Part shown: piece by piece, positions 45,525-62,251 of the stretch
Position numbering within the stretch: the first letter of the stretch is position 1
Layout of the letters: the number at the start of each line of letters is the position of its first letter
DNA from: Acinetobacter pragensis
GTDB lineage: Bacteria; Pseudomonadota; Gammaproteobacteria; Pseudomonadales; Moraxellaceae
Direction: 5' to 3'
Assembly: GCF_001605895.1 (NCBI RefSeq)
Contig: NZ_LUAW01000024.1
Location: forward strand, 1-64,000
Length of the DNA stretch: 64,000 nucleotides
Notes under the pieces: model-generated
Databases searched by the model: none
Seen by the model: the letters and a program-made list of their open reading frames with translations, nothing else
What the model was told of the DNA's origin: nothing
Position numbers and translations under genes: made by a program

Positions 45525-46148
45525 ATGGTGCTAATGAATGTGTCTCGGCTGACGATTAGCCGGGCAGATAGCGTATTTCCTGCTTTAGAGCACATTCCGC
45601 CGATGCAGCGCCGCCGCTTGTCTCAATTGGCGAAGCTGGCGTTGAATAGCGCTATGCAGGCGCTGGACGGGGCTCAAGCTGACTATATTGTATGGGTGTC
45701 ACAATATGGCGATGAGTCGAAAACCCTAAAAATATTAGAAGATGTGCTGAATGATCAAACGCCGTCGCCGACTCAATTCTCGACTTCAGTACACAATGCG
45801 GTTTCCGGCTTATATTCTATTTTATGCCAGGATGCCGCGCCAGCCACCAGTTTGGCGGGTTCATGGCGTGATGGATTGATTGAAGCCTATGCTTGGTTGA
45901 AAACAAACCCGGAAGCCCGTCAGGTTCTGCTGGTGTATTACGATGAGGCGTTGCCTGAAATCTATATTGAGCATCAGCCATTTCCCGTTTTTGCAATGGC
46001 GGCTTTGGTGTCATTAACGCCGGCAAATTTAGCATTCCAGCCGGGCAGTTCTGATACTGAAACAGCATATTTTAAACAGGCTTTAAACTTTTACGACTTT
46101 TGGCAGCATGACAGCCAAAGTGAATGCGGCGCGTGGACCAAATGCTGA
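45525..46148 (+). CDS. apeC: Aryl polyene chain-length-factor-like ketosynthase homologue (ApeC-type)
   Basis: The 207-residue protein is half the length of a normal ketosynthase and matches the Ketoacyl-synt_2 / ApeC type. The KS catalytic-cysteine position, expected in a TACSSG-like element, here reads HNAVSGLYSI with Val in place of Cys, so it cannot form an acyl-enzyme. In characterised APE systems ApeC forms a heterodimer with the active KS ApeO. It starts the operon of some 20 genes, behind AAGGA. ATG 45534 is an alternative start. Confidence 0.8.
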   Translation: MVLMNVSRLTISRADSVFPALEHIPPMQRRRLSQLAKLALNSAMQALDGAQADYIVWVSQYGDESKTLKILEDVLNDQTPSPTQFSTSVHNAVSGLYSILCQDAAPATSLAGSWRDGLIEAYAWLKTNPEARQVLLVYYDEALPEIYIEHQPFPVFAMAALVSLTPANLAFQPGSSDTETAYFKQALNFYDFWQHDSQSECGAWTKC

Positions 46149-46942
46149 AATTCAATGACCTTAAGAAAAAAGCCAACTATGCATGGCGCGTAGGGGCAAC
46201 CGGATTCAGCTTTGCCAGTTTTGGCGTGGGCGGTGTGGCCATCGGCGGTTTAATTGCGCCTTTGGTCCGGCTGAGTACCCAAGCCCCCGCACTGCGCACA
46301 CAGCGTACGCAAAAAATCATTAAGCACAGCTTTAAAGGCTTTACCGAAATGATGGTGAAACTGGGCATTATGACCTATGAGGTCGAAGGCTTGGATAAGC
46401 TGCAGCGCAGCCATCAGGAATTGGTCATTGCCAACCATCCGACGCTGATTGACGTGGTGGTTTTAATTGGTTTAATGGAACAGGCGAATTGTGTTGTGAA
46501 GCAGGCGCTGTGGTCAAATCCATTCACCAAAGGCCCGGTGCAAAGTGCAGGCTATATTTTAAATGCCGGCTCTGAACAGTTTATTCAGGACTGCGTGCAT
46601 AAACTGCAGCAGGACAAAGCGGCGTCATTGCTGATTTTTCCTGAAGGCACGCGTACAGCCAAAGATGCGCAGCTGAATGAATTTCAGCGCGGCGCAGCCA
46701 ATATTGCGCTGCGTGCGGGTGTGCCGATACGGCCTGTACTGATTACATGTACACCATCTACACTGACAAAAAATGAAAAGTGGTATCACATTCCAGAACA
46801 GCCGTTTCATATTCAAGTGAAAGTGCTGGATGCGGTTCGAGTGGAAGACGTATTGGAGGATGTTACAGTCAATCCAAAAAATGTACGTCTGTTAAATCAA
46901 CAATTACAGCGGTTTTTTAACCAAGAGTTATCCTTAAAATGA
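46142..46942 (+). CDS. apeD: 1-acyl-glycerol-3-phosphate-type acyltransferase (ApeD-type)
   Basis: I use ATG 46142, which overlaps the apeC stop (ATGCTGA); an ATG at 46124 is the alternative. The 266-residue LPLAT protein has an N-terminal hydrophobic helix, the HX4D acyltransferase motif in ANHPTLIDVVVLI and the FPEGTRT motif at residue ~175. It is expected to transfer acyl chains at the inner membrane while the polyene is anchored to a lipid-like head. It overlaps the first ACP gene by the ATGA of 46939. Confidence 0.85.
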   Translation: MLKFNDLKKKANYAWRVGATGFSFASFGVGGVAIGGLIAPLVRLSTQAPALRTQRTQKIIKHSFKGFTEMMVKLGIMTYEVEGLDKLQRSHQELVIANHPTLIDVVVLIGLMEQANCVVKQALWSNPFTKGPVQSAGYILNAGSEQFIQDCVHKLQQDKAASLLIFPEGTRTAKDAQLNEFQRGAANIALRAGVPIRPVLITCTPSTLTKNEKWYHIPEQPFHIQVKVLDAVRVEDVLEDVTVNPKNVRLLNQQLQRFFNQELSLK

Positions 46943-47199
46943 GCAATCTTGCTGATGAATTAAAGCAAATGATTATTGATGTGCTTGCCCTTGAAGACAT
47001 TAGTATTGACGATATCGACACAGACGCGCCTTTATTCGGCGACGGTCTAGGTTTGGATTCAATTGATGCTTTGGAATTAGGTTTGGCATTAAAGAAGCGC
47101 TACGGCATTCATTTGAATGCAGAGTCAGCAGAAACCAAAGAACATTTTAAGTCAATTCAAAGCTTGGTGGCTTTGGTTGAAGCACAGAAAACAGCATAA
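46939..47199 (+). CDS. apeE: Acyl carrier protein, aryl polyene pathway (ApeE-type)
   Basis: The 86-residue four-helix ACP has the phosphopantetheine serine in GLGLDSIDALELG and an acidic helix II. The overlapping ATGA start couples it to the acyltransferase. One of two different ACPs in the cluster, used to carry growing polyene and lipid intermediates. Confidence 0.92.
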   Translation: MSNLADELKQMIIDVLALEDISIDDIDTDAPLFGDGLGLDSIDALELGLALKKRYGIHLNAESAETKEHFKSIQSLVALVEAQKTA

Positions 47200-47208
47200 G
47201 AGGTTGCT

Positions 47209-47457
47209 ATGCTTGCACAAGAAACTGTTTTAGAAAAATTGCGTGAATGGATGGACGAGCTGTTTGAAATTGCGCCTGAAGATGTTCAGCTGGAATCAAA
47301 TTTAGCTTCTGACTTGGATGTGGACAGTATTGATGCGATTGATTTGGTCGTGAAAATTAAAGAACTCACCGGCAAGCAGGTCAATCCTGAAGACTTTAAA
47401 AATGTCCGTACCGTTCAGGATGTGGTTGCTGTTATTCAGAATATGTCTGCTGAATGA
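47209..47457 (+). CDS. apeF: Acyl carrier protein, aryl polyene pathway (ApeF-type)
   Basis: The 82-residue ACP has the pantetheine serine in SDLDVDSIDAIDLVVKI. It is clearly different from the first ACP (about half identical around the serine). Two ACPs in a row are characteristic of APE and type II polyene systems. Confidence 0.92.
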   Translation: MLAQETVLEKLREWMDELFEIAPEDVQLESNLASDLDVDSIDAIDLVVKIKELTGKQVNPEDFKNVRTVQDVVAVIQNMSAE

Positions 47458-48008
47458 ACGCGGTTTTAAAAGGGATAGCCGTCATCGGATTGATGCTCTA
47501 TCCCTTTTTTGTCGGATACGGTTTAATGCATGGCCAATTTGTTTGGGTCAGCGCGTTATTGATTGCCTTGGGCGTGATCCGGCTGTTCAGTAAAGGCAAT
47601 GCTTTGCTGTGGCCGCTGACCGGTTTTGCCATACTCTGCGGCGGCCTGAGCCTGATTTTAAAAGACCATGCCTGGCTGAAACTGTATCCGGTATTTATGA
47701 ATATCGGCGCTTTGATTATTTTTACAATGACTTTAGTTAAACCGCCCTCCATGATTGAGCGTTTTGCTCGTTTGGCAGAGCCAGATTTGCCGCCGGAAGG
47801 GGTAGCATGGACGCGTCAAGTGACTAAAGTCTGGTGCGGTTTTTTTTGTGTAAATGCAGCCATCGCGCTGATGACGGTTTTTTTTGCCCCAATGAAAATT
47901 TGGGTGCTGTATAACGGTTTTATTGCATATGTGCTGATGGGAATTCTGCTGCTGGGCGAGTTTCTGCTGCGCAAGCGCCAGCAGCGGCTGCATCAGATGC
48001 AAAAATAG
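47454..48008 (+). CDS. apeG: Inner membrane protein, COG4648-type (ApeG-type)
   Basis: The 184-residue protein has four to six hydrophobic segments (GIAVIGLMLYPFFVGYGLM, FGVNAAIALMTVFFAP-like, YVLMGILLLGEFLL). A soluble loop near residue 95 carries IERFARLAEPDLPPEGVAWTRQVT. Such proteins are fixed members of APE clusters but have no assigned activity. ATGA overlap couples it to the preceding ACP gene. Confidence 0.8.
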   Translation: MNAVLKGIAVIGLMLYPFFVGYGLMHGQFVWVSALLIALGVIRLFSKGNALLWPLTGFAILCGGLSLILKDHAWLKLYPVFMNIGALIIFTMTLVKPPSMIERFARLAEPDLPPEGVAWTRQVTKVWCGFFCVNAAIALMTVFFAPMKIWVLYNGFIAYVLMGILLLGEFLLRKRQQRLHQMQK

Positions 48009-48065
48009 CTGTTTTAATACAACATTTACTCCAGATATTAGAAATACGGTTTAGAAACAAATTTT

Positions 48066-49727
48066 ATGTCTTGTCATTTTCAGCACCATTTAAATTCTTC
48101 GCGCACACTGTGCATTCATGCGGATTTGCACCTGATCACTTTTCAGGATTTTTGGCGCGATGCTGCTGAACAGGCGGTGCAGATCAGCCAGCTGAATGAA
48201 CCGGTTTGGGCGCTGTGGGAACAAGACAGTTATGAGTTTTTAGTGCTGCTGTTTGCCGCACTGCAGGCCGGCAAGCAAGTGCTGCTGCCGCCGAACCGTG
48301 TCAGCGATTTAGAAAATGAGCTGTCCGGACAGAAAATTTATTTTCTAAAGCGTTTGCCGCTGACCGCAGATACCCCTCAAAGTGCATTCACTTTTGATGA
48401 TGCATTTTTAAGCCAAGCGCAGGTGTATTTTTATACCTCGGGTTCTACAGGGCAGCCGAAAAAAATTCCGCGCACACTGCAGCAGCTGTTTAATGAAGTT
48501 TGCGGTTTGGACTCCAGCTTTGCTTTGCCTGAGCAAGCCGTGGCGATTGCAACGGTCAGTCATCAGCATATTTATGGTTTACTGTTTAAATTGCTGTGGC
48601 CTTTGGCCAGCGGGCGCAGTTTCTATCAAAGCCAAGTGGCTTTTCCTGAAGATGCCGCCGATATTCAAAAAAAGATTGCACATTTGAATGTGCCGAATTA
48701 TGTGATTTCCAGTCCAGCTTTGTTAAAGCGGTGGACGAAAGATGTGGTCCTGCAGGATTGCATAACCGTGTATTCCTCTGGCGGCAAGCTGGATTCAGGC
48801 GTTCGCCCATTTCTGAATAGGCCAATTACCGAAGTGTTCGGCAGCTCTGAAACTGGCGGCATTGCCTACCGTCAGGCAGATGAGGCATTGTGGATGCCTT
48901 TTGCCAATGTCGATATTCAGACCGCAGCGCAGCAGGAATTGGCAGTGAAAACCAATCATGCGTTCAGCAATGAATGGATTCTGACGGGCGATAAAATTGA
49001 GTTGATCGAGGCGGGAAATCCAAAGAGCCTATTTCGCTTGCTGGGCCGCTTAGACCGCATTATCAAGCTGGAAGAAAAGCGCCTGAGCCTTGATGCAGTA
49101 GAAGCCAAAATTGCCGAGCTGGATGCTGTGCAGCAGTGCCATGCGCTGGTGTATGAAAAAGATCACCGTCAAATTTTAGCGGCGGTTGCCGTGCTGAGCG
49201 ATGAGGCGCGTCTGGATTTACAGCAAAAAGGCAAAGCTGCATTTACGGCAGAGCTGAAAAAGCGCTTAGCCGAAAAACTGGAAAGCATTGCCATTCCGCG
49301 CCAGTGGCGTTTCTTAACGCAAATGCCGCAAAATTCCCAATCAAAATTGAATCAACAGTATTTAAAATCCTTATTTCAACCGATGCATTTGCCCGTGGTT
49401 TTGGCGCAGCAGCGCCAAGAAGAGCAGATCGCTTACCGATTGGAGTTCACTCCTGAGCTGGCGTGCTTTCAAGGGCATTTTCCGAATTTTCCTATTTATC
49501 CCGGTGTTGGCCAAATCGGTTTTATTCAGTATTTTGCCAAGCAGCATTGGACGGATTTACTGTGGTGCAATGGCTTTGAGCAGCTGAAATTCCAAGATTT
49601 AATTCGGCCTTATCAATGTGCAGATTTGTCCTTAAGCCGTAAGGCGCATAAAGTGAGTTTTGAGCTGAAAAATCAAGGGAAGACCGTGGCCTCTGGGCGT
49701 TTATTGTTTAACGTGTCGGATGCTTAA
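48066..49727 (+). CDS. AMP-dependent acyl ligase fused to a hotdog dehydratase-like domain (ApeH-ApeI fusion)
   Basis: The first ~430 residues form an ANL adenylation domain: VYFYTSGSTGQPKKIPR (P-loop), VFGSSETGGIAYR and GRLDRIIKLEEKRLS before the hinge. A C-terminal hotdog domain of about 115 residues follows, with CFQGHFPNFPIYPGVGQIGF as in FabZ/ApeI dehydratases. The catalytic His is present in GHFP. The acid normally 14 residues later (Glu in FabZ) is Gly here. The ligase half probably activates the aryl starter as acyl-AMP and loads it on an ACP. In the recalled order, separate apeH and apeI genes occur at this place. Confidence 0.85.
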   Translation: MSCHFQHHLNSSRTLCIHADLHLITFQDFWRDAAEQAVQISQLNEPVWALWEQDSYEFLVLLFAALQAGKQVLLPPNRVSDLENELSGQKIYFLKRLPLTADTPQSAFTFDDAFLSQAQVYFYTSGSTGQPKKIPRTLQQLFNEVCGLDSSFALPEQAVAIATVSHQHIYGLLFKLLWPLASGRSFYQSQVAFPEDAADIQKKIAHLNVPNYVISSPALLKRWTKDVVLQDCITVYSSGGKLDSGVRPFLNRPITEVFGSSETGGIAYRQADEALWMPFANVDIQTAAQQELAVKTNHAFSNEWILTGDKIELIEAGNPKSLFRLLGRLDRIIKLEEKRLSLDAVEAKIAELDAVQQCHALVYEKDHRQILAAVAVLSDEARLDLQQKGKAAFTAELKKRLAEKLESIAIPRQWRFLTQMPQNSQSKLNQQYLKSLFQPMHLPVVLAQQRQEEQIAYRLEFTPELACFQGHFPNFPIYPGVGQIGFIQYFAKQHWTDLLWCNGFEQLKFQDLIRPYQCADLSLSRKAHKVSFELKNQGKTVASGRLLFNVSDA

Positions 49728-49742
49728 GATGAGAGCAAGAGA

Positions 49743-50477
49743 ATGAAACACTGTGTTGTAATTCCAGTCTATAACCATCCGCACTATTTGGAAGCGCTGG
49801 TGGCGCATCTGAATGCTTTCAATTTGCCTATTATTCTTGTGAATGACGGCAGTGATGCGGCCTGTACGGCCTTGATTCATCAGCTGGCGGCTCATGATCC
49901 GCTGGTGGATTTGGTTGAGCATGCACAGAATCAAGGCAAGGGGCAGGCTGTGATGACAGGGCTGCAGCATGCCTTCAAGCAAGGCTATAGCCATGCGCTG
50001 CAGCTGGATTCTGACGGCCAGCATGACTGGAATGATGTGCAGCGTTTTTTAGATGCCTCTCAGAAACATCCTGACGCCATGATTATTGGCCAGCCAGTGT
50101 TTGATGCATCCGTGCCGAAAAAGCGCCTGTATGGGCGCTACGCCACGCATATTTGGGTCTGGATCAACAGCCTATCATTTGAAATTAAAGACAGTATGTG
50201 CGGTTTTCGGATCTATCCGCTGGAGCAAACGGTCAAAGTGCTGAATAGCGCTAAATTTCAGCCGCGCATGGGTTTTGATTCGGAAATTCTGGTGCGTCTG
50301 AAATGGGACAATGTGCCTTTTGTGAATGTGCCGACGCGGGTGATTTATCCTGAAAACGGCATTTCACACTTCAATGTTTGGCGGGATAATTTGGGGATGG
50401 CGCGCGCACACAGCCGCTTATTGGGCGGCATGCTGCTGCGCTTGCCTAAGCTGCTGTATCAGAAAGTGAAGAACTAA
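49743..50477 (+). CDS. Family 2 glycosyltransferase (ApeJ N-terminal-type)
   Basis: The 244-residue GT-A enzyme has VIPVYNHPHYLEALVAHL, IILVNDGSD and the metal-binding LQLDSDGQHD (DxD-like), plus a RIYPLEQTVKVLNSAK segment. Its length suggests a DPM1-like or polyprenyl/lipid head group glycosyltransferase. In other APE clusters a glycosyltransferase and an HtrB-like acyltransferase are one fusion (apeJ); here they are two genes, two bases apart. Acceptor is probably the lipid anchor. Confidence 0.85.
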   Translation: MKHCVVIPVYNHPHYLEALVAHLNAFNLPIILVNDGSDAACTALIHQLAAHDPLVDLVEHAQNQGKGQAVMTGLQHAFKQGYSHALQLDSDGQHDWNDVQRFLDASQKHPDAMIIGQPVFDASVPKKRLYGRYATHIWVWINSLSFEIKDSMCGFRIYPLEQTVKVLNSAKFQPRMGFDSEILVRLKWDNVPFVNVPTRVIYPENGISHFNVWRDNLGMARAHSRLLGGMLLRLPKLLYQKVKN

Positions 50478-50479
50478 GC

Positions 50480-51409
50480 GTGTCAGAAAAAAATATGCCC
50501 AAATGGAGCGCCATGAAAGAGCGTGGCGGCATGCTGCCGCTGATGCTGATGCTCGGCTTTTACCGTTTGGGTGGACGCTGGCTGTGCAGGCTGGTGCTGT
50601 ATTTTGTGATTTTATGGTATTGGCTGTTTTCCAATACTGTACGTCAGGCATCACTGCTGTATCTCAAAAAACTGCATCATTTTGCAGGAACAGATTCACC
50701 CTTTGAGTCTGAACCGCATATGGGCCAGACCTATACGCATCTCATGCAATTTGGTGAATGCATTTTGGATAAGGTGGAAGGCTGGCTGGGCAATGTTGCC
50801 GAGCAGGAACTGCAATTGCATGGTCATGAGCATTTCCGCGAGCATTATCAAAAAGGCGCAGTGATTGTGGTGTCGCATTTTGGCAACATTGAGCTGCTGC
50901 GCGCGGTGAAGTCTGAGCATGCGCAAAAAATCAATGTGCTGGTGTATCAAAAGCATGCCACTAAATTCAATGCATTTCTAAAAAAGCTGAATGCGCATGC
51001 CGATGTGAATTTGGTTTCAGTGGATGAATTAGGGATTGAGACTGCATTAATTCTGCAGGATAAGCTGGATCAGGGCGAATGGGTGATTGTGGCGGCAGAC
51101 CGTGTGCCAGTGCAGTCTGGCCGCGTGCAGCCTGTAGAATTCTTAGGAGAACAGGCGCTGTGGCCGCAAGGCGCATGGATTCTTGCCAGCTTATTGAAAG
51201 CGCCCGTGCTGGCTGTGTTTTGCTATCGGATGCAGGATCATTTTGAAGTGCATATTCATCAGGTTGCCGAGCAGCTGAACTGGCCGCGCAAAACGCGCAT
51301 GCAGGCCATGCAGCAGACGACTCGGCAATATGTGCAATTGCTGGAACAGCACTGCATGCGCGCGCCGTATCAGTGGTTTAATTTTTATAATTTTTGGAAT
51401 AAAGGATAA
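50480..51409 (+). CDS. LpxL/HtrB-type lysophospholipid acyltransferase (ApeJ C-terminal-type)
   Basis: The GTG start at 50480 follows the glycosyltransferase by two bases. The 309-residue protein has an N-terminal hydrophobic segment (LCRLVLYFVILWYWLF), the HX4E motif in VVSHFGNIELLRA and a RVPVQSGRVQPVEFLGE region typical of lipid A late acyltransferases. It probably acylates the polyene's lipid headgroup, adding an acyl chain from ACP. Confidence 0.85.
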   Translation: MSEKNMPKWSAMKERGGMLPLMLMLGFYRLGGRWLCRLVLYFVILWYWLFSNTVRQASLLYLKKLHHFAGTDSPFESEPHMGQTYTHLMQFGECILDKVEGWLGNVAEQELQLHGHEHFREHYQKGAVIVVSHFGNIELLRAVKSEHAQKINVLVYQKHATKFNAFLKKLNAHADVNLVSVDELGIETALILQDKLDQGEWVIVAADRVPVQSGRVQPVEFLGEQALWPQGAWILASLLKAPVLAVFCYRMQDHFEVHIHQVAEQLNWPRKTRMQAMQQTTRQYVQLLEQHCMRAPYQWFNFYNFWNKG

Positions 51410-51414
51410 GTCTT

Positions 51415-52938
51415 GTGTTAACGATTGGGGAAACACCGCTCAGCATTGAAGACGTTATAGCTGTCGCGCGCAAAGAAAAATCAGTGGCTTTGCCGGCTTC
51501 CGCAGAATGGCAGGCATTGATCCAGCGCGGTGCCGATTTTCTTGATCAGCTGCTGCAAGACGAAGGCGTGATTTATGGCGTGACCACCGGCTATGGCGAT
51601 TCCTGTCTGGTAGAAATTCCGCCGCATCAAGTCAATGAGCTGCCGCTGCATTTGTCGCGTTTTCATGGCTGCGGCATGGGGCAGAATCTGGATTTAATTA
51701 CCGCACGCGCAGTGGTTGCGGTACGTTTATGCTCGCTGGCGCGCGGTTATTCGGGCGTCTCGCATGCTTTGCTGCAGCGTTTGGCGTGGATGCTGAATGA
51801 AGATGTGATTCCAGTCATTCCATCGGAAGGCTCGGTCGGCGCCAGCGGTGATTTAACCCCATTGTCCTATATTGCCGGCGCGCTGGTGGGTGAGCGCGAT
51901 GTGTATTACCAAGGCAAGATTGTACCGATTGCCGAAGTGTATGCAGAAAAAGGCATGCAGCCTTTGGTGATGCGTCCCAAAGAAGGCTTGGCGCTGATGA
52001 ACGGTACAGCAGTCATGACCGCCATCGCCTGCCTGAACTATAAAAAAGCAGAACAGATTTCCCTGACCAGCACCATGGTGACGGCATTGAATGTCTTGGC
52101 GCTGCAAGGCAACCCGAGCCATTTTGATGAAGTGCTGTTTGCGCAAAAACCGCATGCGGGGCAGCAGCAAATTGCGGCGCAATTGCGTGTTTGGCTGAAC
52201 AGTGAAGTGCAGACGGCGCATCAAAGTTCGCGCCTGCAGGACCGCTATTCGCTGCGCTGTGCGCCGCATATTATTGGCGTGTTTGAAGATTCAAAAGTGT
52301 GGCTGCGCCAGTTTATTGAAAATGAACTGAACTCCAGCAATGACAATCCGCTGATTGACCCTGTGAATTTGCGTGTGCTGCATGGCGGGCATTTTTATGG
52401 CGGCCATATTGCGCAAGCCATGGACAGCCTGAAAATCATGATTGCCAATATCGCAGACTTGATGGACCGCCAGCTGGCGCAATTGGTGGACTACAAAATG
52501 AATAACGGCCTGCCGCGCAATTTGACCGGTTCAAGCCCAGAGCGCCTGCCGTTAAATCATGGCTTTAAAGCCGTACAGATCGGAGTTTCTGCTTGGACTG
52601 CAGAAGCGCTGAAACAGACCTTATCGGCATCAATTTTTTCCCGTTCAACAGAATGCCATAATCAGGACAAAGTCAGCATGGGCACTATTGCCGCCCGCGA
52701 TGCCAGCCGCGTGATTATTTTAACCGAACAGGTCATGGCGGCGCTCAGCTGCGCAGCGGTTCAGGCGGTCAAGCTTAAAGGCGCGGATACAGAACTCAGT
52801 CCTGTATTAACAGCATTTAAACACTGGGTGCTTCAGAGCTTCAACTATGTAGAGGAAGATCGCCCTTTACAGAACGAACTGCAGGCGCTGGTCAACCGGT
52901 TTGAAAATTTAGAACTTTTAAACAGCATTGCTGTATAA
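51415..52938 (+). CDS. MIO-type aromatic amino acid ammonia-lyase
   Basis: The 507-residue enzyme is a HAL/PAL/TAL superfamily member. The MIO-forming tripeptide Ala-Ser-Gly lies in SVGASGDLTPLSY. Other conserved elements are YGVTTGYG, a late NQDKVSMGTIAARDA and SSNDNPLIDP. The selectivity dipeptide, aligned without gaps from HLSRFHGCGMG, is Phe-His rather than the Ser-His of HutH or the Phe-Leu of plant PAL. It deaminates an aromatic amino acid, probably Tyr or Phe, to an aryl acrylate. As no chorismate lyase is present, it is a natural source of the aryl starter. GTG start. Confidence 0.9.
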   Translation: MLTIGETPLSIEDVIAVARKEKSVALPASAEWQALIQRGADFLDQLLQDEGVIYGVTTGYGDSCLVEIPPHQVNELPLHLSRFHGCGMGQNLDLITARAVVAVRLCSLARGYSGVSHALLQRLAWMLNEDVIPVIPSEGSVGASGDLTPLSYIAGALVGERDVYYQGKIVPIAEVYAEKGMQPLVMRPKEGLALMNGTAVMTAIACLNYKKAEQISLTSTMVTALNVLALQGNPSHFDEVLFAQKPHAGQQQIAAQLRVWLNSEVQTAHQSSRLQDRYSLRCAPHIIGVFEDSKVWLRQFIENELNSSNDNPLIDPVNLRVLHGGHFYGGHIAQAMDSLKIMIANIADLMDRQLAQLVDYKMNNGLPRNLTGSSPERLPLNHGFKAVQIGVSAWTAEALKQTLSASIFSRSTECHNQDKVSMGTIAARDASRVIILTEQVMAALSCAAVQAVKLKGADTELSPVLTAFKHWVLQSFNYVEEDRPLQNELQALVNRFENLELLNSIAV

Positions 52939-52953
52939 GCACAGGATATTGCC

Positions 52954-53373
52954 ATGCATGCAGATGTCATCATTGACGTGCCTTTTCATGATGTGGATAC
53001 CATGAACGTGGTCTGGCACGGACATTATTTAAAATACTTTGAGATTGCGCGCTGCAAGCTGCTGGATCAATTTCACTATAACTATACGCAAATGCGCGAT
53101 TCCGGCTATGCATGGCCGGTGATTGAAAGCCATGTCCGCTATGTGCAGGGCATTGAATTCGAGCAAAAAATCCGTGTTCGGGCTATTTTGAAAGAGTGGG
53201 AAAACCGCCTGAAAATAGAGTATCAAATTTTTGATGCCTTATCCGGCAGAAGGCTGACCAAGGGCTACACCACGCAAGTAGCGGTGCAGATTTCAACACG
53301 TGAAATGTGCTTTCAGTCACCTCAGGTTCTGTTTGACTGCCTGAATGCATGGCCTGAATTTAAAGCGGAGTAG
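52954..53373 (+). CDS. apeK: 4-hydroxybenzoyl-CoA-type hotdog thioesterase (ApeK-type)
   Basis: The 139-residue single hotdog has the 4HBT/YbgC catalytic segment FHDVDTMNVVWHGHYLKYFEIAR, where the Asp and His-Gly form the active site. It may release, edit or unload ACP-bound intermediates. It follows the ammonia-lyase and precedes the LolA-like gene by three bases. Confidence 0.9.
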   Translation: MHADVIIDVPFHDVDTMNVVWHGHYLKYFEIARCKLLDQFHYNYTQMRDSGYAWPVIESHVRYVQGIEFEQKIRVRAILKEWENRLKIEYQIFDALSGRRLTKGYTTQVAVQISTREMCFQSPQVLFDCLNAWPEFKAE

Positions 53374-53376
53374 AAT

Positions 53377-54012
53377 ATGATTCTTCAGCACTATCGATCT
53401 TTTATGCTTTGTGTCACTTGCTCAGCCGCAATGTTCACGCCGGCAGTTCATGCGCAAAATGCAGAATTGAAGCAGATTTTCAGCCAGCTGGGCGCAGTGC
53501 CCATGGTTCGTGCCCATTTTGAACAGCAGAAAAAATTAGCTTCTTTGAATAAGACTTATGTGTCGAAAGGCGAAGTGCTGTTCAGCAAGAATCTAGGCGT
53601 GCTGTGGCAGATTCAAAGCCCTGTCAAAGCGGATTTAGTGGTCACACCGCGCAAGCTGGTGCAGAAAACCCAGCGAACGTCCAGCCAAATTGAAGTGGAT
53701 AAAACGCCGTATGGCTCTGTAGCGACGATGTTTTTGCAGCTGATGTCTGGCAATGAAGCCGCGCTGGCGAAAAATTTTAATGTGGTTTCTGCTAACTATA
53801 GCCCGGCGCAGTGGAATGTTGTGCTGACGCCGAAAAGCAGCCTGTTTAAAAAACTGTTTGTCCGTGTCGATGCACAGGGGCAGCGTTATGTAGAGCGCAT
53901 CGCTATTCAGGAAAAAGCCAATAACAGCACGGTCATCCGTTTCAGCCAGCAAAGCACCCAACCTCAATCTTTAACGGCGGCGGAAAATGCGCTTTTCCAA
54001 TTGGCAAAATAA
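53377..54012 (+). CDS. apeL: LolA-like periplasmic carrier protein (ApeL-type)
   Basis: The 211-residue product has a signal peptide (cleaved near PAVHAQ) and a LolA-like half-barrel: VRAHFEQQKKLASLNKTYVSKGEVLFSKN, VLWQIQSPVKADLVVTP and a VDAQGQRYVERIAIQ strand. It probably shields the hydrophobic polyene lipid across the periplasm. It overlaps the following MMPL gene by 26 bases. Confidence 0.85.
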   Translation: MILQHYRSFMLCVTCSAAMFTPAVHAQNAELKQIFSQLGAVPMVRAHFEQQKKLASLNKTYVSKGEVLFSKNLGVLWQIQSPVKADLVVTPRKLVQKTQRTSSQIEVDKTPYGSVATMFLQLMSGNEAALAKNFNVVSANYSPAQWNVVLTPKSSLFKKLFVRVDAQGQRYVERIAIQEKANNSTVIRFSQQSTQPQSLTAAENALFQLAK

Positions 54013-56311
54013 ATTTACCGCCATTTGGCTGGCTTTTCTTTGCATCATTGCTGTGGTTTTAGGCGCGGCATGGCTGCATAAAGATATTCACATTCAGACC
54101 AACATTTTTGCGCTGCTGCCGGAAGCGCATCAGAATGCCGATCTTGAGCGCGCGCAGCAATACGTCAGCGATCAGCTGAATGACAAAGTTTTTGTGGTGC
54201 TGGATGCCAAAAATGATCAGCAGTTAGCACGGGCTACAGCTGCGCTGAAAATACAGGCGGATCAGAGCGATTTATTTCAGCCTGTACAGCCGCAGCTGGA
54301 TTACGACAAATTTTCCCAAGCGCTGTATCAGCACAAAGCTGGACTGCTGGCGGAAAATGACCGGACGCTGCTGGCGCAGCAGGACTATGCGGCCTTGAGC
54401 GAGCAGAGCCTGCTGCAGCTGATGAGCCCCGGCATGCCGGTAACTGCAGATCTGCTGCAGCAGGACCCTTTGCTGCTGTTCCCGCGCTACGCCATGGGCT
54501 TAAGCGCGCTGCAGGGCAGCTCGGATATCAATCTTGAGCAAGGCTTTGCCACCATTCGAGATGATCAAGGCATTTCCCGTTTGATGGTGCTGCAGCTGAA
54601 AAGCAGTCCATACAATATTGAATATCAGGAACAGACGGCCGCCTTTATTCAGCAGATGAATCAGCAGTTCAGCCAGCTGCAGGTCAAGCCGCACTGGACT
54701 GGGACACTGCTGTTCGCGCAATTCGGCACCAACTCGGCTAAGGAAGAAATATCCACCATCGGTGTGGGTTCAACCCTCGGCATTTTGCTGCTGGTTTGGT
54801 TTGGCTTCCGCTCTGTCCGCCCGATGCTGACTGAAATGGTCGCGGTCGGTACCGGCAGTTTGGTGGCCTTTGCCGTGACCTACTGGATTTTTGGCGAAAT
54901 CCATTTGATGACGCTGGTATTTGGCGCCAGCCTGATTGGCGTCTGCGTCGATTTCTCCTTTTACTTTATGGCGATGCAGTCGCAGCATCGGCATTTGGAC
55001 GGATTTGCTGTCCTTAAGCCGCTGCTGCCCAGCCTGTTTGTCGGGTTGATGACGACCTTGCTGGCCTATGTGGTGCTGAGCTTTACGCCCTTTCCCGGCT
55101 TTAGGCAGATTGCTGTGTTTTCGATGGTCGGCCTGAGCGCAGCGTGGATCACCAGTATTTTATTGCTGCCGCGTCTGCCGGCATTGAATGCTGAACCCGC
55201 GATACGGACGTTAAGCTTCATAGGCAAAGCGCGCCATTATGTACAGGCGCGTAAGCCTTTGCGCTATGCCATGATGACAGCAATTTTACTGGTCACAGGC
55301 AGCAGCTTATTGTTTCTGAAAAGCAATGATGACATTCGTAATCTGCAAAGCATGGATCAATCCTTAAAGCAGGAAGATCAATATGTACGCTCCCGTTTTA
55401 TGCAGCAGCAGGGCAGTGACTATTTTGTCGTGCGCGGCCAAACTCCGGCCGAATTACAGCGCAATGAACAGCAGCTGCTGACGCAGCTTTCTGTTTTGCA
55501 GCAAAATGGCAAGCTGGATGGCGTTCAGGCTTTAGGCCAATGGCTGCCGCCGGTACAGCAGCAAAAGCAGGATATTGCAATGCTGCAGGCCATACCTCAG
55601 ACAGCATTAACCGAATATGCAAACGCCCTGCAGCTGCATCCAGCGGATGTGCTGCGTTGGCAAGCCAGCTTAAAAGATCAGCCTGTACTGACGGATGCGC
55701 TGTTTAAGCATCATCCCTTAAGCTTTTTGCAAATGAGCCCAACCGAACGTCTGGTGATGCTGCAGAATGTGCATGATGTGAATGCAGTACAGCAGCTCAG
55801 CCATGCCAATGCGCAGCTGCTGCGCCCCGTGAATCAGCTCTCTGAACTGTTTAAGCAGCATCGGGAACATGCGCAGCGCCTCTTGATCATTGCTTTGGTC
55901 ATTTTAGCCATTGGCTTAGGCCTGATGTATGGGAAAAAATCCATCTTCCCGCTGGTGCTGCCGGTTAGCATGGCGCTGATGACGGCCTTTGCGATTCAGG
56001 TATGGCTGGGTGTCGAGATTAATCTGTTCAGCATCATGGGCACTTTTCTGATTATCGGAATTGGGGTGGACTATGCGATTTTTTACCGTCACGGGCATGA
56101 TCATCCGCAAGTGGTCGGCATGGCGCTGTTCCTGTGCATGATGTCGACATTTTTCGGATTTGGCTTACTGTCATTCAGCCATACTTACGCCATACACAGC
56201 TTTGGCTTAACCGTGCTGCTGGGCGTCATTTTTTCATTTATTTACGCCACACTGTTTACATCCTCTGATGCAAAGCATGCTGTGGTTCAGCAATATCAGC
56301 CAAAGCGCTGA
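53987..56311 (+). CDS. apeM: MMPL/RND-family exporter (ApeM-type)
   Basis: The 774-residue protein has about 12 spans in two repeats, each with a large periplasmic domain. Characteristic elements are FGASLIGVCVDFSFYFMAMQS in the first repeat and IIGIGVDYAIFYRHGHD in the second, where the Asp/Tyr-Ala-rich helix IV residues couple proton movement. It is expected to move the finished aryl polyene lipid from the inner membrane. It overlaps apeL by 26 bases. Confidence 0.92.
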   Translation: MRFSNWQNKFTAIWLAFLCIIAVVLGAAWLHKDIHIQTNIFALLPEAHQNADLERAQQYVSDQLNDKVFVVLDAKNDQQLARATAALKIQADQSDLFQPVQPQLDYDKFSQALYQHKAGLLAENDRTLLAQQDYAALSEQSLLQLMSPGMPVTADLLQQDPLLLFPRYAMGLSALQGSSDINLEQGFATIRDDQGISRLMVLQLKSSPYNIEYQEQTAAFIQQMNQQFSQLQVKPHWTGTLLFAQFGTNSAKEEISTIGVGSTLGILLLVWFGFRSVRPMLTEMVAVGTGSLVAFAVTYWIFGEIHLMTLVFGASLIGVCVDFSFYFMAMQSQHRHLDGFAVLKPLLPSLFVGLMTTLLAYVVLSFTPFPGFRQIAVFSMVGLSAAWITSILLLPRLPALNAEPAIRTLSFIGKARHYVQARKPLRYAMMTAILLVTGSSLLFLKSNDDIRNLQSMDQSLKQEDQYVRSRFMQQQGSDYFVVRGQTPAELQRNEQQLLTQLSVLQQNGKLDGVQALGQWLPPVQQQKQDIAMLQAIPQTALTEYANALQLHPADVLRWQASLKDQPVLTDALFKHHPLSFLQMSPTERLVMLQNVHDVNAVQQLSHANAQLLRPVNQLSELFKQHREHAQRLLIIALVILAIGLGLMYGKKSIFPLVLPVSMALMTAFAIQVWLGVEINLFSIMGTFLIIGIGVDYAIFYRHGHDHPQVVGMALFLCMMSTFFGFGLLSFSHTYAIHSFGLTVLLGVIFSFIYATLFTSSDAKHAVVQQYQPKR

Positions 56312-56329
56312 AGAAGAAGGTACAGTGCA

Positions 56330-57628
56330 ATGGGCGCTATCCAGCAAACAGACGTTTTGATTATCGGTGCAGGGCCATCAGGCAGTTCAGCAGCAGCGCT
56401 GCTTCGCCAAAAGGGCTATCAGGTTACGGTGATTGAAAAACAGTATTTTCCGCGGTTTTCAATTGGCGAATCATTATTGCCGCAAAGTATGGTCTTTTTG
56501 GAAGAAGCGGGCTTATTGGAAACGGTCCGTACGCATGTCGATGAATGCGCCTTTCAGTTTAAAAATGGCGCATCCTTTTTAAAAGGCAAGCAGCGCAGTT
56601 TCTACGATTTTACTCAAAAATTTTCAGAAGGGCCGGGCACAACATGGCAAGTGCGCCGTGCCGACTTTGATCATCTGCTGGCGCAGCAAGCGCAGAAAAT
56701 GGGTGCAGATGTCCATTTCGGCCATGAAGTCAGCGCTGTGGATGTGGAATCAGCGCATCCCGTATTAACGGTAAAAAATGAGCAGGGTCAAGACTATCAA
56801 ATTCAGGCCAAATTTTTGCTGGATGCCAGCGGTTTTGGCCGGATTTTGCCGAAATTTTTAGACTTGGAGAGCCCGTCAGATTTTCCGGTGCGCCGTGCAG
56901 TGTTCACCCATATTGAAGACGGCATTTTAGATGATCCTGAATTTGACCGCGAAAAAATCTTAATTGCAGTGCATGAAAAAGATCCGCGCGCTTGGTATTG
57001 GCTGATTCCGTTTGCTGATGGCCGTTCATCATTCGGTATAGTAGCGGAGCAGGACTTTTTTGAAAAATACGGCTATGACGGCAGTGCGGATTATGATTTA
57101 GAAGCGCTGCAGAAACGTATTTTGGCAGATGATGACAGCTTATCCCATGTGCTGCGCAATGCAAAACATGATACACCGGTGCGCACATTGGTCGGTTACT
57201 CTGCGGATGTCAAGCATTTGGCTGCGCGTAATTATGCGCTGCTGGGCAATGCGGGCGAATTTCTAGATCCGGTGTTTTCTTCAGGCGTGACGATTGCGCT
57301 GAAATCTTCAAGTTTGGCTGTTCCATTGGTCGATCAAGCGCTGCAGGGGCAGCCGGTTGACTGGATGGAGCAGTATGAAAAACCGCTGCGCAATGGCATT
57401 CAAGTGTTCCGCGCCTATGTTGAATCTTGGTATTCAGGTGAATTTCAGGATGTGGTATTTTCTAAAAATCAGGATGAGAAAATCCGCCGCATGATTGCAT
57501 CGCTGCTGGCAGGCTATGCCTGGGATACATCCAATCCAATTTACCGCAACGCGAAACAGCGTTTAAGCACTTTGGCGGAGTACTGCCGTGAAGACCTGCA
57601 TAGAGAACCGCAGACCGATGGAACCTAA
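56330..57628 (+). CDS. Flavin-dependent halogenase-like oxidoreductase
   Basis: The 432-residue FAD protein begins VLIIGAGPSGSSAAALLRQKG and has the GESLLP motif and the WYWLIP element that marks flavin-dependent halogenases (WxWxIP). A lysine in FQFKNGASF lies where PltA-like halogenases place the catalytic lysine that forms the haloamine/HOX. The C-terminal GNAGEFLDPVFSSG is the late FAD-binding block of this family. It may halogenate the phenyl ring, or may be a related hydroxylase; the family also contains geranylgeranyl-reductase-like oxidoreductases. It lies within the APE operon, 19 bases after the exporter. Confidence 0.75.
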   Translation: MGAIQQTDVLIIGAGPSGSSAAALLRQKGYQVTVIEKQYFPRFSIGESLLPQSMVFLEEAGLLETVRTHVDECAFQFKNGASFLKGKQRSFYDFTQKFSEGPGTTWQVRRADFDHLLAQQAQKMGADVHFGHEVSAVDVESAHPVLTVKNEQGQDYQIQAKFLLDASGFGRILPKFLDLESPSDFPVRRAVFTHIEDGILDDPEFDREKILIAVHEKDPRAWYWLIPFADGRSSFGIVAEQDFFEKYGYDGSADYDLEALQKRILADDDSLSHVLRNAKHDTPVRTLVGYSADVKHLAARNYALLGNAGEFLDPVFSSGVTIALKSSSLAVPLVDQALQGQPVDWMEQYEKPLRNGIQVFRAYVESWYSGEFQDVVFSKNQDEKIRRMIASLLAGYAWDTSNPIYRNAKQRLSTLAEYCREDLHREPQTDGT

Positions 57629-58184
57629 GCTGCCTTTAAAAATCGCCAGTATAATTTTGGCCAGCGCTGTCCTGTGCAGCGGCTGTCAAAGCTTAGTGCC
57701 GAAAGCGCAAGGCTTGACTGCGGTGCATTGGATTGCACAGCGCTATCAGCGGCAGGATCAGATTGAAGTGCAGTGGAAAACACAGAGCTTCAGTTTTTTG
57801 CTGTATCAGCAGCAGAACGGTCAGCAGCTGGAGATGCTGGCCCTGAGTCTGACAGGGCAGCAGCTGTTTAAGCTGAGCTTTGACGGGCAGCGGGTAAAAG
57901 TTGAACAGCATATTGAGCAAATGAAACTGCTGCCTTTTGAATATGTCGCGCGCGATTTGCTGTATGCAACGTATCCGGATTTTGCGGCATTGCAGGAAGG
58001 GCAAGTCTTTGCTGAGCAAAAAAATGCTGAGCAGACTATTTATATTCAGCAGCATCCAGTATTAAGAATTGTGCAGCAGAATCAGGCTATTGAGCTGAAT
58101 AATTTGCAGGTGCCTTATCAGATGTTCATTAGCCCAGTCAGCAATACATTGGAAAATGATGGGGACAGTCATGACCCAAGATAA
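57618..58184 (+). CDS. apeN: DUF3261 lipoprotein of the aryl polyene cluster (ApeN-type)
   Basis: I use ATG 57618, inside the overlapping end of the flavoprotein gene (ATGGAACCTAA); a GTG at 57588 is the alternative. The 188-residue product has a lipobox in VLCSGC and a mainly beta-sheet body with many Gln residues. DUF3261 proteins are near-constant in APE clusters and are probably outer-membrane partners of LolA/MMPL delivery. Mechanism unknown. Confidence 0.8.
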   Translation: MEPKLPLKIASIILASAVLCSGCQSLVPKAQGLTAVHWIAQRYQRQDQIEVQWKTQSFSFLLYQQQNGQQLEMLALSLTGQQLFKLSFDGQRVKVEQHIEQMKLLPFEYVARDLLYATYPDFAALQEGQVFAEQKNAEQTIYIQQHPVLRIVQQNQAIELNNLQVPYQMFISPVSNTLENDGDSHDPR

Positions 58185-59373
58185 ATCATTCATCGGCCAG
58201 CTGGCCGTCGGCATTCAATATAGTGCCGCGCTGTCTGCGCTTGGACAGAATGCATCAGAGCTGAAAAGCGCGCTGACACAAGCTGAAAACACGCTGTCTG
58301 CACGCAGTGATTTAATTGCCGGGCGCAGCGTTTGGGTTGGGGCATATCCGCATTCATTGGTCAGCGCTGTGCCGGAATCTCTGCATGAAGAAGATTCACG
58401 CAATTTGCGCTTGGCTTTAAGTGCTTTAGCGCAAATCGAAACGCAGATCCGGGCGTATACCTCGCCATTCTCTAAGCAGCGCTTGGCAGTGATTTTAGGC
58501 ACATCGACTTCAGGTATTGCGGATAATGAGGCTGCATTAAAAGCGCATTTTCAGCAGCAGTCTCAGGCGCAGGTGCCGCATCAAAAACAGGAAATGGGCA
58601 GTTTAGCCAAGGCTTTGCAAAAGTATTTAGGTTGGGAAGGCGCGGCTTATACAATTTCTACCGCCTGTTCGTCCGGCGCTAAAGCCATGGCGGCAGGACA
58701 GCGCCTGCTGAATGCAGATTTAGCTGATGCAGTCTTGGTTGGCGGTGTGGATACCTTGTGCAAGCTGACTTTAAACGGCTTTGATAGCCTGGAAAGTCTA
58801 TCCGGCAGCATTTGCCAGCCATGCGGCGCCAGCCGTGACGGCATCAATATTGGCGAAGCGGCAGGCCTGTTTTTATTGTCTAAAGAACCTGCGCCTGTCA
58901 TGCTGCTGTCCAGCGGTGAGTCGATGGATGCTTGGCATATTTCTGCGCCGCATCCGCAGGGGAAAGGGGCGGCAGAGGCGATGAAAAAGGCCTTGGATGC
59001 TGCTGGTTTAGGTGCGGATGATATTGGCTATTTGAATTTGCACGGCACGTCAACGCCGCAAAATGATGCGATGGAAGTTAAGGCTGTGCAGACCGTATTT
59101 TCAGACTGCAAGGTGGCCATCAGCAGCACCAAGCATAAAACCGGGCATTGCCTTGGCGCGGCAGGCGCCATTGAGGCTTTTATTTGCCAGCAAGTTTTGC
59201 AGGATCAGACTTGGCTGCCGCTGCATCATGCCGGTGAACTGGATGCAGATTTGGCGGATCAGCATTATGTGCTGGACAGCCGGTTGCCGCAGCCGATACG
59301 CTATGCCATGAGCAATTCTTTTGCCTTTGGCGGAAGCAATATCAGTTTAATTTTGGGAACCGTTTCGCCATGA
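58171..59373 (+). CDS. apeO: Beta-ketoacyl-ACP synthase (ApeO-type)
   Basis: Start at ATG 58171 is preferred, with GGGGACAGTC upstream; two earlier in-frame ATGs lack a site. The 400-residue KS has an intact triad: Cys in ISTACSSGAKAMA, His in NLHGTSTPQNDAME and His in KHKTGHCLGAAG. It is likely the main elongating KS, paired with the inactive ApeC homologue. It overlaps the lipoprotein gene by 14 bases. Confidence 0.9.
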   Translation: MTQDKSFIGQLAVGIQYSAALSALGQNASELKSALTQAENTLSARSDLIAGRSVWVGAYPHSLVSAVPESLHEEDSRNLRLALSALAQIETQIRAYTSPFSKQRLAVILGTSTSGIADNEAALKAHFQQQSQAQVPHQKQEMGSLAKALQKYLGWEGAAYTISTACSSGAKAMAAGQRLLNADLADAVLVGGVDTLCKLTLNGFDSLESLSGSICQPCGASRDGINIGEAAGLFLLSKEPAPVMLLSSGESMDAWHISAPHPQGKGAAEAMKKALDAAGLGADDIGYLNLHGTSTPQNDAMEVKAVQTVFSDCKVAISSTKHKTGHCLGAAGAIEAFICQQVLQDQTWLPLHHAGELDADLADQHYVLDSRLPQPIRYAMSNSFAFGGSNISLILGTVSP

Positions 59374-59807
59374 TGGATGCCGCAGAGTTTATTCCGCATC
59401 AAAAGCCGATGGTCTTTGTCGATCATCTGCTGGAAGCCAATGACGAATTTGCGGTTGCCGAACTGCAGATTACTTCTGAGCTGATGTTTTGTGAGGCAAG
59501 CGGGCTGCCGACTTGGACCAGTATTGAATTGATGGCGCAGACCATCAGCGCTTATGCAGGGCATAAAGGGCAAGGCAAAGGCTTGCCGCCAAAAATCGGC
59601 TTTTTATTAGGAACCCGTAAAATGCAGCTGCCGTGCGCTTATTTTGCTTTGGGCAGTACGGTAAGGATTCGGGTCGAGCAGAGTTATCTGCATGAAGGCT
59701 TAGGGCAGTTCAGCTGCCAAATTGAATATCAAGAACATCAATTCAGCGCCATGCTTAGCGTATTTGAGCCTGAAAATATGAATGACATGATTGGGATGCA
59801 CGCATGA
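59370..59807 (+). CDS. apeP: 3-hydroxyacyl-ACP dehydratase-like hotdog (ApeP-type)
   Basis: The 145-residue hotdog protein has His in FIPHQKPMVFVDHL and the acidic residue in TWTSIELMAQTISAYAG. In the characterised pathway ApeP and ApeI dehydratases form a heterodimer; here the ApeI-like partner would be the C-terminal domain of the ligase at 48066, which lacks its acid. ATGA overlap joins it to apeO. Confidence 0.85.
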   Translation: MMDAAEFIPHQKPMVFVDHLLEANDEFAVAELQITSELMFCEASGLPTWTSIELMAQTISAYAGHKGQGKGLPPKIGFLLGTRKMQLPCAYFALGSTVRIRVEQSYLHEGLGQFSCQIEYQEHQFSAMLSVFEPENMNDMIGMHA

Positions 59808-60529
59808 GCAGAAGAATTTTAGTAACAGGATCCAGCCGCGGCATTGGCAAGGCGATTGCCTTTGAATTGGCAAAAGCCGGTTTTGATGTGACGGTACATG
59901 CGCGTTCCAGACAGCAGGACGCTGAACAGGTGGCAGAGGGCATTCAGGCCTTAGGCCAAGCCAGTCATGTGCTGATGTTTGATGTGAATGACCGTGAAAA
60001 TATTGCTGCGGTTTTAGAGCAGGATATTGCGCAGCATGGCGCATTTTATGGTGTGGTACTGAATGCCGGCTTGACTCGGGACGGCGCTTTTCCTGCACTG
60101 ACTGATGAGGATTGGGATGATGTCGTTTCGACCTCGCTGAACGGTTTTTACAATGTGCTGAAACCTTTGACAATGCCGATGATCCGCCTCAAGCAGGGCG
60201 GACGCATTGTGACTTTATCTTCTGTATCCGGGCTGATGGGCAACCGCGGCCAAGTGAATTACAGTGCCGCAAAAGCAGGCTTAATTGGCGCAACCAAGGC
60301 GCTTGCGCTTGAATTGGCTAAGCGCAAAATTACCGTAAACTGTGTGGCGCCGGGCTTGATTGAAACTGAAATGGTCACCGAAGAAGTGAAAGAGCATGCA
60401 TTGAAAATGATTCCGATGCAGCGCATGGGGCATGCTGATGAAGTGGCGAAAGCTGTCAGATTTTTATGCAGCGATGATGCCAGCTACATTACCCGTCAAG
60501 TGATTTCGGTAAATGGAGGCCTGATCTGA
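59804..60529 (+). CDS. apeQ: 3-ketoacyl-ACP reductase, SDR family (ApeQ-type)
   Basis: The 241-residue short-chain dehydrogenase has NADPH motif TGSSRGIGKAIAFELAKAG, catalytic Ser in SSVSGLMGN and the YSAAKAG Tyr-Lys pair. It is FabG-like and reduces beta-keto intermediates during polyene elongation. It overlaps both neighbours by an ATGA or TGATG, in keeping with strict stoichiometry. Confidence 0.93.
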   Translation: MSRRILVTGSSRGIGKAIAFELAKAGFDVTVHARSRQQDAEQVAEGIQALGQASHVLMFDVNDRENIAAVLEQDIAQHGAFYGVVLNAGLTRDGAFPALTDEDWDDVVSTSLNGFYNVLKPLTMPMIRLKQGGRIVTLSSVSGLMGNRGQVNYSAAKAGLIGATKALALELAKRKITVNCVAPGLIETEMVTEEVKEHALKMIPMQRMGHADEVAKAVRFLCSDDASYITRQVISVNGGLI

Positions 60530-61749: not shown

Positions 61750-61767
61750 TTGGACGAGGGTAGAACA

Positions 61768-62202
61768 ATGTTATTAAAAAATATGTGTGCAGCGGCAGCA
61801 TTGGTGTTTGGCGGGACGACTGCGGTATTTGCGGCAGATACGATGCATGACTTTAATTTTAAAGAAGCGGTAGACCGCGCTGTTGCAGATGGCGCGCTGG
61901 ACGGTTCGGTAAAATTTTATTTGGCGGGAACCAAGTCTGGCGGCAAAGTGATTCAAAAAGGTTTGGTGACCAATAAGAAAACCAACGGTTTTGCTAAATC
62001 TGCCGAAAGTGCTTGTGATCATGTGCTGCGTTCAGCGCTGATCCAATTCCAAAATACAGCAAAAGCCAAGGGCGCCAATGCAGTAACAAATTTGGTCAGC
62101 TTTTATAAGTCGAATGAAACCCGCAGCGCGACTACTTATCAGTGCGCAAAAGGTACAGCAATTGCGGGTGTTGCGCTGAAAGGCGATATTGTTAAATTTT
62201 AA
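61768..62202 (+). CDS. Small secreted two-cysteine protein in the aryl polyene cluster
   Basis: ATG 61768 is preferred over TTG 61750; GAGGGT lies upstream. The 144-residue product has a signal peptide cleaved near AVFAAD. The mature domain has a single disulfide-capable pair (Cys in SACDHVLRS, Cys in TTYQCAKG), short alpha/beta elements and a C-terminal TAIAGVALKGDIVKF strand. It resembles YbjQ/heavy-metal-binding-like small domains by feel only. Databases often call homologues 'excinuclease ABC subunit A', which the sequence does not support. Conserved place between apeR and the PPTase suggests a periplasmic accessory role in transport or assembly. Confidence 0.6.
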   Translation: MLLKNMCAAAALVFGGTTAVFAADTMHDFNFKEAVDRAVADGALDGSVKFYLAGTKSGGKVIQKGLVTNKKTNGFAKSAESACDHVLRSALIQFQNTAKAKGANAVTNLVSFYKSNETRSATTYQCAKGTAIAGVALKGDIVKF

Positions 62203-62251
62203 GTAGGCGTTAAGTCTATTCATCGAGCTGAGAGAACATGCTGAGAGCAGA

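Follow-up and report, generated by a model that had tools for sequence, protein, structure and literature searches.

A putative aromatic amino acid ammonia-lyase in an aryl polyene operon of Acinetobacter pragensis, and its probable part in starter supply

The window analyzed here, 64,000 nucleotides of Acinetobacter pragensis (positions 1 to 64,000 of contig NZ_LUAW01000024.1, here C24), contains an aryl polyene (APE) operon with a gene at 51415-52938 for a lyase of the 4-methylideneimidazole-5-one (MIO) type. This lyase probably belongs to the aromatic amino acid ammonia-lyases, with tyrosine ammonia-lyase (TAL) as the likeliest assignment; its product would be loaded by ApeH as the APE starter. 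In the proposed route the lyase would deaminate L-tyrosine to 4-coumarate (or L-phenylalanine to cinnamate), ApeH would adenylate the C6-C3 acid and load it onto an acyl carrier protein (ACP), and ApeO/C, R, Q and I/P would extend the starter to the aryl polyene. Such a route differs from the starter route usually assumed for APE pigments. As 4-coumaroyl-ACP is equivalent to 4-hydroxybenzoyl-ACP after one extension cycle, it would join the APE chain one step in and call for no new polyketide synthase chemistry. The chemistry and the selectivity dipeptide of the lyase are ordinary and its gene is well conserved; what is new is that its presence goes with particular residues of the ApeH pocket, an association that opens starter choice to testing. 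Among the matches listed, from a literature mostly without subscription journals, none dealt with a lyase in the APE operons of Proteobacteria.

The lyase gene sits in a same-strand run of APE genes (45525-62908, +) holding counterparts of ApeC, E, F, G, H, I and K to R, recognized by Pfam matches, including PF22817 for ApeP, and by synteny with Acinetobacter baumannii VB31459 (locus L113) and Escherichia coli; the original prediction, made from the letters of the window, had rightly placed an ammonia-lyase inside an APE cluster. The gene is an uninterrupted open reading frame with a GTG start, and its 507-residue product matches PF00221 over its full length (521.4 bits, cut-off 27.3, residues 9-469). 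The product also carries the Ala-Ser-Gly triad (residues 143-145), as predicted, and thus has both the profile and the triad that mark MIO aromatic amino acid lyases. Its predicted structure has a pLDDT of 84.7, and its closest named matches are from Acinetobacter, at 96% identity. The host genome is 3.7 Mb and 99.99% complete, and a search of it for a second PF00221 gene found none.

In a tree of 51 rows, the APE lyases formed a single clade (100/100) whose sister is a Pseudonocardia BagA-like enzyme (100/97); HutH was separated from them by a split of 88/85, and the lyase was not joined to either of the two aminomutases included. The phylogeny that had been proposed as a check thus gives the APE lyases a clade of their own, apart from HutH and from both aminomutases. 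The deeper order of the tree is unsure because Anabaena phenylalanine ammonia-lyase (PAL) and several other sequences are long branches. No model reached its cut-off when the lyase was scanned against NCBIfam. The best match, below threshold, was the model for BagA/FevW TALs (NF041222, 410.7 bits, cut-off 1000), enzymes that resemble the lyase in having His at the second selectivity position and differ in their known TAL motif, Tyr-His (YH), in place of Phe-His (FH; PMC5651878).

The dipeptide Phe83-His84 falls within the block LSRFHGC, which aligns without gaps to LVLSHAA of Pseudomonas putida histidine ammonia-lyase (HAL; Ser-His), LVHHLAS of Rhodobacter TAL (His-Leu), LVWFLKT of Anabaena PAL (Phe-Leu) and LVRSHSA of Streptomyces tyrosine aminomutase (Ser-His). 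The gap-free alignment described earlier therefore stands for HutH, Rhodobacter TAL and a bacterial PAL, the plant PAL that it had invoked lying outside our alignment. The description of the pair as unusual has to be given up: Phe-His is the rule within the APE-lyase clade. All 111 retrieved lyase loci, a set that counts some genomes twice, have the motifs ASG and NQDKVS, and all but one have FH, the other being YH (Lysobacter niastensis, L108); among 80 named loci, FH was found in 79 and YH in one. Clade members, taken as matches of at least 722 bits (the next match scores 340), occur in 16 of 369 gammaproteobacterial genomes, 12 with FH and four with YH. A 2017 paper reports YH/FH for most hits in two of its three database searches and terms them TAL-like (PMC5651878).

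Every clade member aligned has His as its second selectivity residue, and the same paper ties His at this position to the strict TAL BagA, with FH possibly intermediary (PMC5651878). This argues against the unlikely alternative that the lyase is a PAL, whose cinnamate would give a head group either unsubstituted or hydroxylated at a later step, for which the FAD-dependent oxidoreductase encoded at 56330-57628 would be one candidate. A PAL would fit the first residue, Phe, and Lys385, both as in Anabaena PAL (Met takes the place of the Lys in Rhodobacter TAL and in P. putida HAL), as well as the presence of the oxidoreductase in the operon and the Phe-Leu pair of Pseudonocardia L159, which stands closest to the clade in the tree. 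The exchange His89Phe is reported to convert Rhodobacter TAL to a phenylalanine enzyme (PMC9002059), and TALs are described as carrying His at the first selectivity position (PMC3992019); the lyase does not have this His, so that phenylalanine may be its substrate, which counts against the assignment as TAL. The pocket letters of ApeH, considered below, are common to 4-coumarate ligases and speak against a PAL, though they do not separate coumarate from cinnamate.

The distribution of the lyase follows that of the APE genes. Among 149 Acinetobacter genomes it is present (at least 73% identity) in 75, always with APE genes, and a strong match to apeP lies no more than 10 kb from each of the 76 loci. 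In the sample of 369 gammaproteobacterial genomes, as read off by eye, lyase and apeP share a contig in each of the 16 lyase genomes; the distance is at most 8 kb in 15 of them and about 56 kb in G397. In the order to which G397 belongs, the lyase is on a different contig from ApeH, or more than 100 kb away, in seven genomes (G683, G708, G739, G751, G762, G764 and G798); contig breaks may explain part of these separations. ApeP occurs without the lyase in 17 genomes of the 369-genome sample (read off by eye), and six Acinetobacter genomes have a strong ApeP match and no lyase. Of these six, G113 is represented by a contig of 5.2 kb, and G131, G143 and G144 show just a small ApeI/ApeP/phosphopantetheinyl transferase-like locus within the 20 kb examined; the other two, G097 and G076, are described below. 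On a tree of ApeR, the lyase requires seven gains or losses, at least three of them on supported branches. Judged by this distribution, the lyase is a conserved but optional APE module.

The link to starter loading comes from a comparison of alignment columns between operons with and without the lyase, which found two discriminating columns in ApeH, one in ApeQ and none in ApeR, ApeO or ApeK. The two ApeH positions are Leu173 and Gly265. Both residues are present in 66 of 67 Acinetobacter lyase operons, the remaining one being gapped at 173; position 173 is Val in the lyase operon of Marinobacter persicus (L105). When detection was widened, 13 of 15 ApeH proteins from operons lacking the lyase deviated from Leu-Gly. 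In 66 near-family ApeH rows, Gly265 is found in 50 of 50 with the lyase and in four of 16 without it, and positions 265 and 173 rank as the top two of 411 columns by discrimination. Genomes added later, examined only after the Leu-Gly rule had been noticed, gave Leu-Gly in 49 of 49 with the lyase (48 plus G555) and another combination at 49 of 51 lyase-less loci (45 of 47, plus G530, G535, G582 and G584). The seven genomes with the lyase distant from ApeH likewise have Leu-Gly.

Both residues were placed in the acid-binding pocket by motif register with residues of plant 4-coumarate-CoA ligase (4CL), not from a structure; the 4CL residues used were Tyr239, Ala243 and Gly334 of Pp4CL1, together with poplar Pro337 and Arabidopsis Asn256. 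PDB searches with ApeH listed no alignment to a 4CL. E. coli ApeH has Thr and Ile at the two positions. The 4-coumarate-CoA ligase (343 bits, cut-off 334.7) encoded with a TAL in the photoactive yellow protein (PYP) operon of Indioceanicola (L164) has Leu and Gly, as do the ApeH proteins of lyase operons; the TAL of that operon is His-Leu and groups with Rhodobacter TAL, unlike the window lyase. Five further PYP-type ligase homologues, one of which adjoins an annotated pyp gene, all have Gly at 265, with Leu (three) or Ile (two) at 173; the four of them that were scanned score 258-294 bits, below the cut-off. In a model of the plant enzyme Pp4CL1, Tyr239, Ala243 and Gly334, which neighbour the two positions, line the hydroxycinnamate pocket, and the exchange G334A abolishes activity, which its authors ascribe to a smaller pocket (PMC5239791). 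A small residue at ApeH 265 would suit the longer C6-C3 acid, and the ApeH pocket of lyase operons seems matched to the lyase product. Overall likeness of ApeH to 4-coumarate ligase was rejected as evidence: the window protein scores 85 bits with TIGR02372, the lyase-less E. coli ApeH 75 and the lyase-less ApeH of genome G097 84.

Several observations weigh against a coumarate starter made by the lyase. Independent pairs on a tree of 77 ApeH rows, built with columns 173 and 265 left out, number six with support, of which about three agree with the lyase, none oppose it and three show no difference (median p 0.25, non-significant); even so, when the same pairs were applied to the 60 best of 400 columns, columns 257, 265, 173, 236 and 238 led, 257 lying in the stretch that precedes GSSETGG and 236 and 238 in the stretch that reads YSSGG in the window ApeH. 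Among the later lyase-less loci, 42 of 47 are Glu-Ser and of distant ApeH types, and with one such type dominating, the independent cases are few. Leu-Gly also occurs in ApeH without the lyase, in four genomes (G097, G234 and, with contigs of 11.8 and 4.2 kb, respectively, G815 and G745) and at the megaplasmid locus of Cupriavidus metallidurans CH34, the chromosome of which was not searched. In G097 and G076 the APE operon is otherwise complete, with the acyltransferase gene leading directly into the thioesterase gene and no gene found in the place of the lyase. We found no measured activity for any enzyme of the APE-lyase clade. Lastly, A. baumannii APE enzymes, from the same type of operon, supplied with 4-hydroxybenzoyl-ACP1 formed an APE-like chromophore absorbing at 450-460 nm (PMC8041823). 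As a separate observation, a gene whose 551-residue product looks by eye like a CoA ligase (L118:12124-13779) separates apeN from the oxidoreductase gene in the lyase-less operon of G076.

The A. baumannii APE system thus accepts 4-hydroxybenzoate, and the original prediction went too far in letting the lyase act in place of the 4-hydroxybenzoate route. Its argument that no chorismate lyase lies nearby also fails, since the host genome has ubiC elsewhere (C14:70454-70882) and the E. coli operon, for which a 4-hydroxybenzoate starter is predicted, has no chorismate lyase gene either (PMC8253772, Table 1). A XanB2-type chorismatase (TIGR04444) had no match in the genome, which has no bearing on ubiC. 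The same facts could be read to mean that the lyase is accessory, the pigment being built mainly on 4-hydroxybenzoate from the ubiquinone pathway and coumarate serving as an extra or alternative starter. This reading, which we hold to be improbable, would accommodate ubiC, the in vitro use of 4-hydroxybenzoate, the complete lyase-less operons and the repeated gain or loss of the lyase; it sits poorly with the presence of the lyase in half of the Acinetobacter genomes, always with APE genes, and with the different ApeH pocket of most lyase and lyase-less operons.

What survives of the original prediction is the supply of cinnamate or coumarate as starter, which remains the best reading, given the aromatic type of the enzyme, its membership of the APE operon and the ApeH pocket residues. 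From these sequence features we infer the substrate and product of the lyase and a preference of ApeH for 4-coumarate. As the chains grown from the two starters would be of one kind, starter supply by the lyase would explain how operons can acquire or lose the lyase while the other genes stay as they are, and why in vitro synthesis can begin from 4-hydroxybenzoate. By extension, and with about even confidence, proteobacterial APE operons may have at least two starter types readable from ApeH: type 1, with Leu/Gly and a lyase in the genome, would use tyrosine-derived 4-coumarate, and type 2, with Thr or Ser and Val, Ile or Ala, would use 4-hydroxybenzoate, with a third group (Glu with Ser, Ala or Gln) using maybe another benzoate. 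On this view type 1 would take in Acinetobacter, A. baumannii GC2 among them; 4-hydroxybenzoate would stand in for the native starter in these bacteria, and the tyrosine side-chain carbons would begin the chain. If the lyase route is real, tyrosine would supply the APE pigments of many Gammaproteobacteria, as it does flexirubins in their producers. The in vitro experiments with A. baumannii enzymes would then have relied on a substitute starter, and the identity of two ApeH residues would be of help in predicting from sequence which starter an operon uses.

The nearest known parallel is flexirubin initiation in Chitinophaga pinensis, in which the TAL FlxA and the 4-coumarate-CoA ligase FlxY likewise combine a lyase with an aryl acid ligase in an aryl polyene cluster (PMC3992019). 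The systems differ in that the window lyase has Phe-His and scores 345.4 bits with the FlxA equivalog NF053541 (cut-off 700), and so is no FlxA equivalog by score; in that the window has a proteobacterial APE operon with a family 2 glycosyltransferase and an LpxL-type acyltransferase; and in that FlxY yields a CoA ester (PMC3992019), whereas ApeH of Xenorhabdus loads the ACP directly (PMC8253772). The operon of E. coli CFT073 (apeA-R) has the same ketosynthase, reductase, dehydratase, ACP and transport genes (PMC8253772), but has no lyase between ApeJ and ApeK, has the methyltransferase ApeB, and has ApeH unfused to ApeI. The A. baumannii VB31459 operon has the same gene order as the window, with a lyase 84% identical, and follows der/EngA; the GC2 operon is likewise placed after EngA, the der product, with ApeI fused to ApeH as here (PMC8041823). 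Two A. baumannii papers give 4-hydroxybenzoate as the starter, and the word 'lyase' is absent from the main text of both (PMC8041823, PMC8358021).

Two further activities were considered. That the lyase is an aminomutase, its beta-amino acid capping or starting the molecule, is very unlikely: its top single PDB matches are indeed Streptomyces tyrosine aminomutase (252 bits), but it stays below the cut-offs of the tyrosine and phenylalanine aminomutase models (305.9, 326.3 and 195.9 bits against 501, 800 and 1250), it groups with neither aminomutase in the tree, and the APE starters in the papers cited here are aryl acids. Least credible is a histidase taken into the operon by chance, for although HutH profiles score 385-396 bits, little under the best family, the hutH equivalog reaches only 385.3 of the required 539.15 bits, Phe83 and Gln417 replace the Ser and the motif-2 Glu that accompany each other in 12 of 12 HutH-like rows compared and in P. 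putida HAL (Glu being the mark of HAL and Gln that of TAL and PAL in the legend to Fig. S1 of PMC3992019), urocanase (PF01175) has no match in the 99.99%-complete host genome, and 35 of the 149 Acinetobacter genomes hold the lyase together with a separate HutH-like gene (57 have the latter). On these residues, scores and gene contents, the lyase does not look like a histidase and appears to be of the aromatic type.

Table 1. Features of the APE operon in the window, with related loci elsewhere. Ape letters were assigned by position and similarity to the E. coli genes; lyase residue coordinates were computed as 51415 + 3 x (residue - 1).
Feature	Position	Strand	Basis or remark
ApeC-like chain length factor (Ketoacyl-synt_2)	45525..46148	+	Pfam
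ApeD-like acyltransferase	46124..46942	+	profile
ApeE acyl carrier protein	46939..47199	+	profile
ApeF acyl carrier protein	47209..47457	+	profile
ApeG-like membrane protein	47454..48008	+	Pfam IspA
ApeH-ApeI fusion: predicted starter adenylation/acyl-ACP ligase (AMP-binding) and dehydratase	48066..49727	+	ApeI part 27.4 bits, just below cut-off 28.5
ApeH Leu173, after motif SHQHIYG	48582..48584	+	column comparison
ApeH Gly265, inside motif GSSETGG	48858..48860	+	column comparison
Family 2 glycosyltransferase, N half of E. coli ApeJ	49743..50477	+	profile, E. coli comparison
LpxL-type acyltransferase, C half of ApeJ	50480..51409	+	profile, E. coli comparison
Putative MIO aromatic amino acid ammonia-lyase, clade of APE-operon lyases	51415..52938	+	Tyr54, Phe83-His84, MIO 143-145, Lys385, Gln417
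Selectivity dipeptide Phe83-His84	51661..51666	+	alignment
MIO-forming Ala-Ser-Gly, residues 143-145	51841..51849	+	alignment
Gln417, Glu in HAL	52663..52665	+	alignment; rule from PMC3992019, Fig. S1 legend
ApeK-like thioesterase	52954..53373	+	profile
ApeL LolA-like carrier	53377..54012	+	profile
ApeM-like transporter of RND type	53987..56311	+	profile matches below cut-offs; synteny
FAD-dependent oxidoreductase, halogenase-like	56330..57628	+	profile
ApeN (DUF3261)	57588..58184	+	profile
ApeO ketosynthase	58156..59373	+	profile
ApeP dehydratase (PF22817)	59370..59807	+	profile
ApeQ ketoreductase	59804..60529	+	profile
ApeR ketosynthase	60529..61749	+	profile
150-residue protein without Pfam match	61750..62202	+	after apeR; kept in most Acinetobacter APE operons compared
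Phosphopantetheinyl transferase	62252..62908	+	profile
Third-group PF00221 loci, other genomes	L121:9950-11512, L122:9693-11261, L123:9280-10806, L125:4899-6449, L126:3332-4858		

The oxidoreductase of the operon matches CmlS with 153 bits (cut-off 900), and is present in many of the APE operons compared, with or without the lyase. The operon is preceded by a relA-like gene (43027-45330) here and in some near relatives, and by der in A. baumannii VB31459, so that APE operons stand at different sites within the genus. Two copies of it occur on one contig of Acinetobacter rathckeae EC24 (L087 and L088), with equal identity to the window in all genes compared. The VB31459 operon lies on a 1.02-Mb sequence named 'plasmid unnamed1' (CP035931.1); since genes for histidine-tRNA ligase, bamB, der and secB surround it, this 'plasmid' probably represents part of the chromosome.

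A third group of PF00221 proteins, encoded in genomes of Acinetobacter, has VGY in place of VGASGD, and hence no MIO triad, and keeps Ser/Thr-His and Gln-Glu-Asp. Three of its rows were placed in the tree and all grouped with HutH; ergothionase (6s7j) was a more distant PDB match of one member (L121).

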